NCBI GenBank assembly: GCA_022823465.1
Contig: JAJEHX010000037.1
Span: 1-47,117, forward strand
From: Candidatus Latescibacterota bacterium
Lineage (GTDB): Bacteria; JAAXHH01
Direction: 5' to 3'
DNA length: 47,117 bases
The notes under the pieces: model-generated
What the model was told of the DNA's origin: nothing
Database searches by the model: none
The model's input: only the letters and a program-made list of their open reading frames with translations
Translations under genes and position numbers: made by a program
Shown here: positions 42,128 to 46,682 of the stretch, one piece after another
How the letters are laid out: the number at the start of each line of letters is the position of its first letter
How positions within the stretch are numbered: the first letter of the stretch is position 1

Positions 42128-43882
42128 CTAGTGTTCCCGCTTGACGACAATCATGGTCGTGTCGTCGTCCTGGCGTCCGTTGCCTACGAAGGCGCGCCAC
42201 ACTTCGATCACGTGATCCCTGATCTCTTCTACCGGACAGTCATGGCAGTCTTTAATCGCCTGCTCGAGCCGGTCGATGCCGAATATCTCGTCGTCCTCGT
42301 TGCATTTCTCGATGAGACCATCCGAATACAGGACCACGACGTCCCCTTCATCCAGTTGCACGCGGCCGTCGTCGAAACTCGCGTCCTCGAAGGAGCCCAC
42401 GATCAGGCCCCCCGTGTACAGGTTGACCGTTTCGCCGGACTTCCGGCACAACAGGGGAGGCGGATGGCCGGCGTTGCAGTACACGAAGGTCATTTCCTGC
42501 ATGTTCGCTATGCCGTAGAACAGGGTCGCGAACCGATCGGCGGAGGTGACTTCGTACAACACTTCGTTCACGTGGCCGATCACGTAGCTCGGAAGGTACA
42601 CATAGTAATTGGCATATTCGTGGAAAGAAGTGTACAGCGAAGCCATGGTCAGCGCGGCGGGTATGCCCTTGCCGACCACGTCGCCGACGGCCACGCCCAG
42701 CTGCTTGTCGGAAAAGGGGATGAAATCGTAGAAATCGCCGCCGACTTCCCGGCTCGGCTCGCTGTACACCGCCAGGGACAGTCCGGGGGTCTCGGGGACG
42801 GCGCGCGGCAACAGGGCGCGTTGGATCTCACCGGCGACCTCCAGTTCCCTGTCCAGCGCCCTGCTTCGCCGGGCGTCATCGAACAGGCGCGCGTTTTGTA
42901 TGGCGATACTCGCCTGCGAGGCAAAGGCTTCCAGCAGGGACTGGGCTTCCTCGTCATAGGCGTTCGCCCGGTCGTTTTCAATGTTGAAGACCCCGATGAC
43001 CTGGTTGCCGGACAGCATGGGTACCGCCATTTCCGACTTTGTTTCCGGCCGGTGCTGCACGTACCGGTCGTCTCGTGACACGTCGGGCACGATGATCGCC
43101 CTGCCCGTCTCGGCCGCGGAACCGCTAATGCCCTCGCCCATCTTGAGGTTGATCGCGTCCCTATCGGACGCATATCCCCGGATGGTCCGTTCGACGACCG
43201 CGTTCTGGTCTTCGTCCAGCAAAACGATGGCCGCCGCGTCATAGGGCACGACGGTCTGCAACGCATCGATGATCAGATTCAATACCTCGTTCAGGTCCAG
43301 CGAACCGCTGATCTTCTTGCCCACTTCGTACAGCGCGGTGCGATGCAGCATCTCCTGTCTCGCCAGCCGGAAATGCAGAAGCCGCGTGACGGCATAGCCT
43401 GCGTGTCTCGCCAGGGATATGGTCACTTCCAGCCGTTCGGGATCGAATACGGTCTGATCCGACCCCATGGTCACGAGCATGACACAGTAAAAACGCTCAT
43501 CGATCTGGTGATGGAACAGCACGGCCTGGCCGGCCGGGGAGTCCTGGCCTGACATGGCGCCCACGGGCCACTCCATTTCGCCCGGGTCGTCAATCAGGCG
43601 CGTACTGGGCTGCGGACGCAGCCAGGCCAGTAGCGCTTCTGCTTCGGCGGGTGGGACGGGATGGACAAAATCGCAGCTGGAAGTTTCGAAGGCGATATGG
43701 TTCGAGACACAGTCCACCATGAAGAAACGGCACGTTTCCGCGTCGGACAACTCCAGGGTAATCTCTTCTATGGCGGCGGACAGGTCGGCCTCTCCCGTGG
43801 CCGCCGTCATGCGGGTCAGACCCTCGACCACACGGTGCCACAAGATATCCGAGCGTGTCTCTACAACTGACGATTCCAGCAT
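42128..43882 (-). CDS. GAF-domain PP2C-type (SpoIIE) protein phosphatase
   Basis: The 584-residue regulator has a divergent GAF-like N-terminal part (about 1-180), a clear GAF domain (about 190-340; ISGSLDLNEVLNLIIDALQ, GEGISGSAAETGRAIIVPDV, AVPMLSGNQVIGVFNIEN) and a C-terminal SpoIIE/RsbU-type phosphatase (about 365-584). Metal-binding parts are REVGGDFYDFIPF, GVAVGDVVGKGIPAALTM and the terminal GRQDDDTTMIVV. Such proteins dephosphorylate anti-sigma-antagonists in partner-switching cascades in response to a ligand. No RsbW-type kinase or STAS antagonist gene is present. The ATG at 43882 has a poor SD; rluD ends 80 bp upstream. Confidence 0.88.
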   Translation of the reverse strand: MLESSVVETRSDILWHRVVEGLTRMTAATGEADLSAAIEEITLELSDAETCRFFMVDCVSNHIAFETSSCDFVHPVPPAEAEALLAWLRPQPSTRLIDDPGEMEWPVGAMSGQDSPAGQAVLFHHQIDERFYCVMLVTMGSDQTVFDPERLEVTISLARHAGYAVTRLLHFRLARQEMLHRTALYEVGKKISGSLDLNEVLNLIIDALQTVVPYDAAAIVLLDEDQNAVVERTIRGYASDRDAINLKMGEGISGSAAETGRAIIVPDVSRDDRYVQHRPETKSEMAVPMLSGNQVIGVFNIENDRANAYDEEAQSLLEAFASQASIAIQNARLFDDARRSRALDRELEVAGEIQRALLPRAVPETPGLSLAVYSEPSREVGGDFYDFIPFSDKQLGVAVGDVVGKGIPAALTMASLYTSFHEYANYYVYLPSYVIGHVNEVLYEVTSADRFATLFYGIANMQEMTFVYCNAGHPPPLLCRKSGETVNLYTGGLIVGSFEDASFDDGRVQLDEGDVVVLYSDGLIEKCNEDDEIFGIDRLEQAIKDCHDCPVEEIRDHVIEVWRAFVGNGRQDDDTTMIVVKREH

Positions 43883-43962
43883 GGTATTCAGGGGCCTGGC
43901 GTCCTCGACTGCGGACGGTTCCCGATCGTTCCCACCCTTTCGGACAGGGCGGGGCCGATCAT

Positions 43963-44961
43963 TCAGTTGCCGCCGGACAGTAGCGTGACAGCCTGTTGCA
44001 TATCTTCGGGTACGGGCGCCCTGTAGGAATGGGTCCGACCCGAATAGGGATGGGTAAACTCCAGTTCGGATGCATGCAGCGCCTGCCGCCGCATGACACC
44101 CAGCATCATGCGCAACCTTGGGCGGCGTTGGGGCGCGATTCTGGCCAGGTGCTTGACCCTTCCGCCGTAAACGGGGTCTCCGATGATGGGATGGCCCAGG
44201 TGAGCCAGATGGACCCTGATCTGATGGGTGCGCCCGGTTTCCAGGTCGAGGAACAGCAGCGTCCCGTCCTCCATCACGCTGCCCACCCTGAAATGAGTGA
44301 CGGCCCGGCGGCCCCGGTCCGCTTCGACTACGGCCATCCGCTGCCTGTGCCGGGGATGCCGCCCGATCGGTGCGTCGACCGTACCCGACGGTTCCGCGGG
44401 ACAACCCCAGACCAGTCCGGTATATCCGCGTTTGATACGGCGTTCGGCCAGCTGGCGCGAGAGCATCGCGTGGGCGTCTTCGCGTTTCGCCACGATCATC
44501 AGGCCGGACGTATCCTTGTCCAATCGATGCACGATGCCCGGCCGGATGGGATCTTCAAATTGCTTCAGGCCCCCGCAGTGGTGCAGAAGCGCGTTTACCA
44601 GTGTCGATCTCGCATGGCCGGCCGCGGGATGAACGACCATGCCCGCTGCCTTGTTTACCACGAGAAGCGCATCGTCTTCAAAGACGATATCCAGCGGGAT
44701 GGACTCCGGTTCGGCACTGGCGGGGGCGGCCTCGGGCACAGTCACTGTGACGATGTCGCCTCCGCATACCCTGTGGCCGCACTTTTCGACGACAACCGAG
44801 TTGACCGAAACCCCACCGTCCCGTATCCAGCGCTGGATTCTCGACCTGGTTGCCGGCAGGTCCGTTTCCGACAGATACTGGTCCAGGCGCCTCAGAGACT
44901 GATCGGGCGGCACCACGGTTTCGACGAAGGAGCCCTCCCGTTCATCCGGAAGGCGCTTCAT
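43963..44961 (-). CDS. rluD: Pseudouridine synthase, RluA/RluD family
   Basis: The 332-residue protein has an N-terminal S4 RNA-binding domain (about 22-75, SLRRLDQYLSETDLPATRSRIQRWI) and a catalytic domain with Asp148 in the HRLDKDTSGLMIVAK motif. LETGRTHQIRVHLAHLGHPI is the second family signature. RluD modifies 23S rRNA helix 69; the family also has RluA/RluC members. Its place just after lspA is the common RluD arrangement. The ATG at 44961 overlaps the end of lspA by 20 bases, so translation is probably coupled. The N-terminal extension of about 15 residues is unremarkable. Confidence 0.92.
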   Translation of the reverse strand: MKRLPDEREGSFVETVVPPDQSLRRLDQYLSETDLPATRSRIQRWIRDGGVSVNSVVVEKCGHRVCGGDIVTVTVPEAAPASAEPESIPLDIVFEDDALLVVNKAAGMVVHPAAGHARSTLVNALLHHCGGLKQFEDPIRPGIVHRLDKDTSGLMIVAKREDAHAMLSRQLAERRIKRGYTGLVWGCPAEPSGTVDAPIGRHPRHRQRMAVVEADRGRRAVTHFRVGSVMEDGTLLFLDLETGRTHQIRVHLAHLGHPIIGDPVYGGRVKHLARIAPQRRPRLRMMLGVMRRQALHASELEFTHPYSGRTHSYRAPVPEDMQQAVTLLSGGN

Positions 44962-45418
44962 CGTTCAAGATCCGGTTTATGGCGGACAGCCGGGTGAAGA
45001 GCAGGATGATTCCGATGGTTACGGCGGAGTCCGCGACGTTGAAGACGGGCCATCGGTAAGCTTCCGCCCCGATATCGATGAAATCCGTGACCTCGCCGTA
45101 AAGCGCGCGATCGATTAGATTCCCCAGGGCGCCTCCAAGTACGATCATTATGGCGTACCGGCCCAGCCGTTCAGAAGAGGGCAGCCTGGCCAGATAGTAG
45201 ATCATTACGGCACACGCAATGATCGACAGGACCAGGTAAAGCCAGCGGCCGCCGATCGTGATTCCGAAAGCCGCGCCTGGGTTTCGAATGTACGTGAACT
45301 GAACCACGTCCCCCAGGAGGGGATAGGACTGATGCAGCGTCATCCACTGCTGAACGGCGATCTTGGTAAGCTGATCCAGGATCACGATCCCGGCGCAGAC
45401 GACGGCCGGTTTTGCCAA
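44942..45418 (-). CDS. lspA: Lipoprotein signal peptidase (signal peptidase II)
   Basis: The 158-residue inner-membrane aspartyl protease cleaves signal peptides of diacylglyceryl-modified prolipoproteins. Four hydrophobic helices are visible. The conserved ILDQLTKIAV, RNPGAAFGI, the catalytic Asp112 in GNLIDRALYGEVTDFID and Asp130 in FNVADSAVTIG are all present. The start appears to be TTG at 45418: no ATG or GTG lies between the upstream in-frame TGA and DQLTK at a sensible distance. No SD is visible, so translation may depend on coupling to the DksA/TraR gene that stops 19 bases upstream. The lipoprotein at 2929 is a likely substrate. Confidence 0.94.
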   Translation of the reverse strand: MAKPAVVCAGIVILDQLTKIAVQQWMTLHQSYPLLGDVVQFTYIRNPGAAFGITIGGRWLYLVLSIIACAVMIYYLARLPSSERLGRYAIMIVLGGALGNLIDRALYGEVTDFIDIGAEAYRWPVFNVADSAVTIGIILLFTRLSAINRILNDEAPSG

Positions 45419-45437: not shown

Positions 45438-45812
45438 TTAGATCAGCCCTCGTTCTTCCTTGGATTTGCATTCGATGCACATTCGGGCGTGGGGTACGGC
45501 CTCGAGGCGTGCCTTGCCGATATCGCCATCACAGACGTAGCAACGGCCATAGGCGCCGTTCTTGATCCGTTCCAGAGCCTCGTCGATATGAAACAGGAAC
45601 CTTCCCTCCCGTGAAGCGAGGTCATAGGCCTGTTCCTGCTCCATGGATTCGGTACCCTGGTCTGCCGGGTGTTCCGAAAACGGATAGCTTCCCGCGACGT
45701 CGCGCGCCGCGGAGTTAATCGTCTTGTCGCCGAAATAACCCAGTTCGTGCAACAGCGTTTCGCGCTTCTCGAGCAGGAGTTTTTCGAATCGCTTCAGATC
45801 TTCACCCGTCAT
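45438..45812 (-). CDS. DksA/TraR family C4 zinc-finger protein
   Basis: The 124-residue protein has an N-terminal coiled coil (about 5-40, LKRFEKLLLEKRETLLHELG), a middle part SEHPADQGTESMEQEQAYDLA and a C-terminal zinc finger CYVCDGDIGKARLEAVPHARMCIEC (C-x2-C-x17-C-x2-C) in pieces. DksA-like proteins enter the secondary channel of RNA polymerase and, often with ppGpp, tune rRNA and amino-acid promoters. The classic DksA tip motif DxxDxA is not obvious, so it is closer to the TraR/YocK-like group. The ATG at 45812 has GGAGG five bases upstream and overlaps the end of the PNP-like gene by 11 bases. A dksA-like gene before lspA is a known arrangement. Confidence 0.9.
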   Translation of the reverse strand: MTGEDLKRFEKLLLEKRETLLHELGYFGDKTINSAARDVAGSYPFSEHPADQGTESMEQEQAYDLASREGRFLFHIDEALERIKNGAYGRCYVCDGDIGKARLEAVPHARMCIECKSKEERGLI

Positions 45813-46554
45813 CCATACCTCCACGGCAAAGAAGGGTTTGATTAATTAGTTCCGCCAACCGTCCGTACTCCTCGCTTCGCGCGGGCACCGACGAAAATAA
45901 TGGTTTTCCATCGCCCGGCCAACTCTTTTCAACGACACCCACCGCGGCCACCGGCAAGCCGCAGTGTACCGCCGCGATCACTTCATCCAGCAATCCTTCG
46001 CCGGCAACATCGATTCCCGCCCGTACCCACGCGGCCTCTCCGTCACCGGTCCGGCCGATCCGGCCATACACCGCGCTCTGCAGGTCAAACCCCATCGATT
46101 CGGCGCCCCGTCTCAGGCTGAATGCCCATCGCGCGTCATAAGGCGCGCTCATATCGGGGTACCTCGGCCCCAGCCGTTCATCGTTCGGTCCCCGAAGCGG
46201 ATTCTCGCCGGTACAATTGACATGATCTTCAATGAGCACGAAAGAACCCGCTTCGAATCTGCCCGTCAGTGCGAAACACCCGAACGCGATGATCAGGCCC
46301 TCGGCGCGCAACATCCGCAGCACCCGCACCGCGTCGATGCTGCGTTCCGTTTCCAGGCCGTTTCCAAGAGAAGGCAACAAAACCGGTCCGGCCTGATACA
46401 CCGTTTCGAAGGGCGCCCAGGAATCGGGAGAATCCATGGCCTTCCAGGGCAGCCTGGGCGGCAAGTCGCGGGGAAGCACCAAGCCGACGATCTTCTTCCC
46501 CCGAAGGCGGTCGCCTAACCTGCCTGCCATCATCGAGATACGGTCGAACGTCAT
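45802..46554 (-). CDS. Purine nucleoside phosphorylase-like protein lacking catalytic motifs
   Basis: The 250-residue protein aligns by eye with class II (trimeric) PNPs in the central FVLIEDHVNCTGENPLRGPN and RLGPRYPDMSAPYD and in VIAAVHCGLPVAAVGVV. It is shorter than PNPs (about 275): the N-terminal phosphate loop GSGLG is absent, GRxHxYEG is replaced by a segment reading LPRDLPPRL, TNAAGGL is replaced by FGCFALTG, and the base-binding Asn of GISxxTN is replaced by Glu (GVVEKS). PNPs normally release ribose 1-phosphate from purine nucleosides. This copy probably does not do so by the usual mechanism. It overlaps the DksA/TraR gene. The leader is a 63-bp tandem duplication without a good SD. 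Confidence 0.78.
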   Translation of the reverse strand: MTFDRISMMAGRLGDRLRGKKIVGLVLPRDLPPRLPWKAMDSPDSWAPFETVYQAGPVLLPSLGNGLETERSIDAVRVLRMLRAEGLIIAFGCFALTGRFEAGSFVLIEDHVNCTGENPLRGPNDERLGPRYPDMSAPYDARWAFSLRRGAESMGFDLQSAVYGRIGRTGDGEAAWVRAGIDVAGEGLLDEVIAAVHCGLPVAAVGVVEKSWPGDGKPLFSSVPARSEEYGRLAELINQTLLCRGGMDDG

Positions 46555-46556
46555 CT

Positions 46557-46682
46557 TTGCCGCACAGGGTTGCCTGCGGGAATCGAGATTCCGCGCGGAT
46601 TCAACCCGCCCGGGACTAGTTGCCGCACAGGGTTGCCTGCGGGAATCGAGTTGCCGCGCGGGTTCAATCCGGCCGGGACCAT
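46557..46682. repeat. 63-bp tandem duplication upstream of the PNP-like gene
   Basis: 46557-46619 and 46620-46682 are about 87% identical by eye; the block TTGCCGCACAGGGTTGCCTG is exact in both. The array ends three bases before the PNP-like start codon (minus strand) and so replaces a normal ribosome-binding region. Confidence 0.92.

Follow-up and report, generated by a model that had tools for sequence, protein, structure and literature searches.

The window analysed here is a stretch of 47,117 nucleotides from the 3.86-Mb genome of a Candidatus Latescibacterota bacterium. Near the contig end, its minus strand carries divIVA, an open reading frame related to purine nucleoside phosphorylase (PNP), a DksA/TraR-type gene (traR), lspA and rluD (Table 1). 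The PNP-like frame is intact from ATG to TGA, and its stop at 45802 overlaps the likely traR start by 11 nt. An overlap with a DksA/TraR gene had been claimed in an earlier sequence-only reading, as had a run completed by divIVA, lspA and rluD; both descriptions hold, the second through Pfam matches. In relatives, yggT and yggS sit upstream of divIVA. The order divIVA, PNP-like gene, traR, lspA, rluD recurs wherever Latescibacterota contigs read far enough, and each Latescibacterota genome found to have the cluster carries a homologue beside traR and lspA.

Two other features touch the run. Between divIVA and the PNP-like gene, positions 46557-46679 hold a 60-nt direct repeat in two copies, 92% alike and with a spacing of 63, that does not occur again in this genome. 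Downstream, a long minus-strand ORF (42128-44404) encodes GAF and SpoIIE-type phosphatase domains; at its N-terminal end it runs into rluD in a different frame. Since the match of this ORF splits at the rluD overlap in relatives, its true start is probably near 43.9 kb.

Table 1. Features of the PNP-like gene and its neighbours in the window
Feature	Position	Strand	Evidence or remark
rluD-type pseudouridine synthase	43963..44961	-	S4 + PseudoU_synth_2
lspA, signal peptidase II	44942..45418	-	PF01252, 7.9e-43
traR, DksA/TraR-type zinc-finger gene, likely ATG 45812	45438..45812	-	PF01258; yteA family model 3.3e-22, under cut-off
Predicted PNP-fold pseudoenzyme, 250 aa	45802..46554	-	PF01048, PDB matches, alignment with human PNP, AlphaFold2, Foldseek
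traR ribosome-binding site GGAGG, within last codons of PNP-like frame	45818..45822	-	same in 7 congeners checked
Former Asn243-His257 region, residues 213-238	45841..45918	-	dN/dS 0.54; first half low model confidence
Former GPSFETxAE (Phe200/Glu201) segment, residues 166-180	46015..46059	-	dN/dS 0.76; alignment
Conserved block HVNCTGENPLRGPNDERLGPRYPDMSAPYDAR, residues 111-142	46129..46224	-	human PNP 135-169, including trimer-interface loop 141-168
Former TNAAGGL (Asn115-Ala116) segment, residues 91-104	46243..46284	-	dN/dS 0.48; alignment
Former phosphate loop (GSGLG/Ser33), residues 21-50, shortened and altered	46405..46494	-	dN/dS 0.57; alignment
divIVA, truncated by contig end	46699..47115	-	PF05103, 1.5e-21

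A predicted PNP fold without its active site

Several lines of evidence place the protein in the PNP/UDP phosphorylase fold, as the sequence-only reading had supposed. It matches PF01048 at 1.2e-9 (38.3 bits against a cut-off of 25.1), and a PDB search finds trimeric PNPs at 1e-21. NCBIfam PNP models also match (2.7e-26), yet far under their cut-offs: NF006054, TIGR01697 and TIGR01700 score 92.7, 80.5 and 81.2 bits against 218, 197.1 and 293.35, respectively. The AlphaFold2 model, built from an alignment of 11 sequences, has a pLDDT of 84.1 and a pTM of 0.87. With this model as query, Foldseek ranks trimeric PNPs first (E 1.2e-20; query-normalised TM 0.74-0.80 for the best matches), and the closest solved structure is the trimeric PNP 4m1e from Planctomyces limnophilus. 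The predicted fold, with its core strands and helices, is thus shared over the full length with trimeric (low-molecular-mass) PNPs.

The residues that make these proteins enzymes are not shared. Human PNP (sequence checked against PDB 7zsl) served as the reference for 14 catalytic or ligand-contacting positions: S33, R84, H86, Y88, N115, A116, F159, F200, E201, M219, S220, T242, N243 and H257. The window protein retains none of the 14 in the alignment; F159, for example, is replaced by Tyr, and the phosphate loop is shortened. The ten other full-length congeneric copies likewise score 0/14 each, with 0-1 in the copies from the wider family and order (G001, G013 and G014). No residue of the phosphate site (Ser33, Arg84, His86, Ser220) is left in the window protein or its congeners, and the window protein has neither Glu201 nor Asn243 (or Asp) at the base site. 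Loss of the GSGLG loop, GRxHxYEG, TNAAGGL and the base-contacting Asn had been noted earlier. The comparison with human PNP confirms all four (the S33 loop is changed, and R84/H86/Y88, N115-A116 and N243 are gone) and extends the list to E201, F200, M219, S220, T242 and H257. The residue losses, the fold and the neighbours together agree with the proposal of a PNP-fold pseudoenzyme in a cell-envelope/transcription gene run, and it is well supported at the sequence level that the protein would be a catalytically dead yet structurally maintained PNP.

The central block, which had been singled out as conserved, does correspond to human residues 135-169 and holds the loop 141-168. In calf PNP, subunit contacts are made mainly by this loop of one monomer on residues 87-91 and 196-205 of the next (PMC9916683). 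The window protein has the loop, its sequence is conserved order-wide in Latescibacterota, and 11 of the 30 invariant columns of the Latescibacterota proteins fall within it (hypergeometric p = 3e-4 for enrichment). The two receiving surfaces, on the other hand, are altered or deleted in the Latescibacterota copies, and an acidic residue near Glu205 persists in most of them. Because these surfaces are changed or missing, the alignment leaves a normal homotrimer through the loop not assured.

Conservation and the pattern of constraint

The PNP-like gene was found in 15 of the 16 Latescibacterota genomes examined: 11 full-length copies within the genus, one congener split across two contigs and three more distant relatives. 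In the remaining genome (G015) neither this gene nor TraR and LspA were detected, which means that the cluster is either absent or not assembled in it. None of the 11 full-length congeneric copies contains a frameshift or stop. Among them, dN/dS (Nei-Gojobori) has a pairwise median of 0.32 and a pooled value of 0.33; presence in 15 genomes together with the latter value rules out a chance ORF or a pseudogene. The gene is nevertheless the fastest-evolving member of the cluster, compared with 0.02 for traR and 0.11-0.16 for lspA, rluD, divIVA and yggT in the same congeners. A catalytic second PNP in the same genomes has a dN/dS of 0.26.

Purifying selection is concentrated on the trimer-loop block (residues 105-142, dN/dS 0.099). 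Residues 181-212 follow at 0.20 and the remnant of the Arg84 segment (residues 51-70) at 0.30, and most former active-site segments lie at 0.48-0.76. At synonymous sites the loop block differs to a normal extent (pS 0.43); the constraint therefore acts on the protein.

This pattern bears on whether the frame is just a leader for traR, feeding ribosomes to the overlapping start, with a protein that matters little. The 11-nt overlap suits such a leader, and so do a traR ribosome-binding site that lies within the frame and the tail CRGG(M/L)DDG, which is strictly conserved throughout the genus because it overlaps that site. The more distant relatives lack the tail, however, and in G001, G013 and G014 traR is not overlapped in the same way. 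In addition, coupling to traR cannot explain the constraint on the loop block, which, like residues 181-212, lies far from the overlap. We consider a leader unlikely.

The same distribution weighs against a ligand-binding pseudoenzyme, whose altered pocket would take a nucleoside, nucleotide or alarmone and regulate DksA/TraR or DivIVA. The fold is that of a nucleoside-binding protein and a DksA/TraR gene is nearby, and the sequence-only reading had suggested nucleoside or nucleotide sensing. Conservation of the pocket would be expected of a ligand sensor, yet every canonical contact to phosphate, ribose and base is lost, most pocket segments evolve fastest and nearly freely, and the order as a whole shows no replacement set of conserved polar residues in the pocket. 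Sensing of nucleosides or ppGpp thus finds no support beyond the neighbouring DksA/TraR gene, and ligand binding in general seems quite improbable.

PNPs in the same gene position of other phyla

PNP relatives in other phyla were sampled by profile search, giving 83 loci after one duplicate was dropped. A PNP was assigned to the slot when at least two of yggS, yggT, divIVA, traR, lspA and rluD lay on the same strand within 7 kb. Thirty-eight of the 83 loci qualify, 29 of them with at least four of the neighbours; loci were sampled by best PNP score, and these counts are therefore not frequencies. The usual order is yggS-(yggT)-divIVA-PNP-ileS-traR-lspA-rluD. The gene separating PNP from traR proved to be a class I tRNA synthetase in the two loci checked. 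It is missing from the Latescibacterota clusters (L025-L034), as it also is from a few clusters elsewhere whose slot PNP is intact (L131, L136, L138 and L147). The window gene has the same neighbours, order and strand as this yggS-yggT-divIVA-traR-lspA-rluD slot. The gene run seen in the sequence-only reading stands; what that reading overlooked is the series of intact PNPs in the same slot of many other phyla. The occurrence of the slot across these phyla is new here, and no description of a cluster with a PNP between divIVA and traR/lspA was found in the literature searched.

Slot PNPs share with the window gene not only neighbours and order but also the loop sequence GPND..GPRFPDM. Identity to them is 60% over residues 131-166, compared with 12-40% elsewhere. 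They differ in catalysis: 34 of the 38 retain 8-10 of 10 catalytic positions (9-10 in the 45 PNPs outside the slot), and the window protein does not. Intact slot PNPs (L038-L158) have Asp where human PNP has Asn243, another residue the window protein lacks. A crystal structure exists of human E201Q/N243D PNP with 2-fluoroadenine (PDB 3gb9); together with this Asp, it suggests that intact slot PNPs may accept adenosine.

The four eroded slot PNPs outside Latescibacterota (G021, G096, G097 and G098) belong to one small phylum-level group and form a graded decay in the same slot: of the 10 catalytic positions, G021 and G096 keep one each, the fragmentary G097 copy two and G098 seven. Like the window gene, they combine an eroded active site with a kept loop, and their genomes carry a separate intact PNP, as does the window genome. 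They differ in that erosion is partial in G098 and in that the tree places the group among slot PNPs, with supports of 82/92 and 89/83 (not starred). The canonical trimer-loop motif is absent from the second PNP of either decaying lineage, where 26-28 aa stand in place of 32-35; in the G021 lineage (L110-L113) an unrelated segment replaces the loop.

In the tree, the Latescibacterota copies sit on a long branch that does not display descent from slot PNPs. With this long branch, AU tests reject neither a grouping with the G021 lineage in a single pseudo-PNP clade (p = 0.175) nor a grouping with the second PNP (p = 0.364). Orthology with slot PNPs is supported by synteny and not by the tree. 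Still, the shared slot, the shared loop motif and the second PNP's lack of that motif all argue for decay in place, and the most fitting reading of the window gene is a slot PNP whose catalysis was lost there and which was then retained. Recent duplication of the genome's own PNP is disfavoured because that second PNP has no such loop, although the AU test does not reject a grouping of the two. Replacement of YfiH/YlmD (PF02578) was also considered. That family was undetected in the four Latescibacterota genomes and G021 searched, and it coexists with a slot PNP in three other genomes, so there is no clear exchange.

Possible roles for the retained protein

Retention might reflect inertia, that is, slow decay under relaxed selection among important genes. 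The high dN/dS relative to the neighbours and the graded decay in the G021 phylum are what such decay would produce. Against it stand the intact reading frames of all 11 full-length congeneric copies, a constraint near that of the catalytic second PNP and a loop conserved across the order, and we regard it as improbable. A new catalytic activity on the PNP fold would account for the strong retention and could draw on the invariant polar residues R77, D110, H111, N124, D125, R131, D182 and H197. These residues also occur in ordinary slot PNPs, however, and map to the loop and core and not to a new site, which makes new catalysis very improbable.

The protein probably has a non-enzymatic job now. 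A scaffold or protein-binding role is most likely, although inferred, since selection constrains the subunit-contact loop and leaves most of the pocket free. The explanation we favour, and think more likely than not, is that an ancient cluster yggS-yggT-divIVA-PNP-(ileS)-traR-lspA-rluD held a resident PNP, which in Latescibacterota would have lost catalysis in place, purine phosphorolysis being covered by another PNP that is intact and encoded elsewhere in the genome. The pseudo-PNP would still fold into an oligomer through the trimer loop, may be translated in step with traR via the overlapping stop and start, and would be retained as a structural or protein-binding partner. At this one conserved gene position, PNPs range in a natural series from intact to fully dead, and the constraint that remains falls on the subunit-joining loop. 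This makes testable the idea that metabolic enzymes in division/envelope clusters have another, non-catalytic function able to persist after catalysis is lost.

Each decaying lineage pairs a catalytic second PNP that has no canonical loop with a slot pseudo-PNP that has the loop and no active site, which could mean a division of labour. Possibly the pseudo-subunit joins the catalytic PNP in a complex, stabilises it or regulates it; or its loop may serve a partner linked to DivIVA or TraR. We give this a small chance only, the idea of loop complementation having been noticed post hoc.

A literature search on bacterial PNP pseudoenzymes found nothing relevant. Among plants, the bark/vegetative storage proteins of Populus are nucleoside phosphorylase-like (PMC3751785). 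They resemble the window protein as phosphorylase relatives in a non-enzymatic role (for the window protein, a putative one); they serve plant nitrogen storage, are unlinked to this cluster, and are likened to it here by role and not by sequence.
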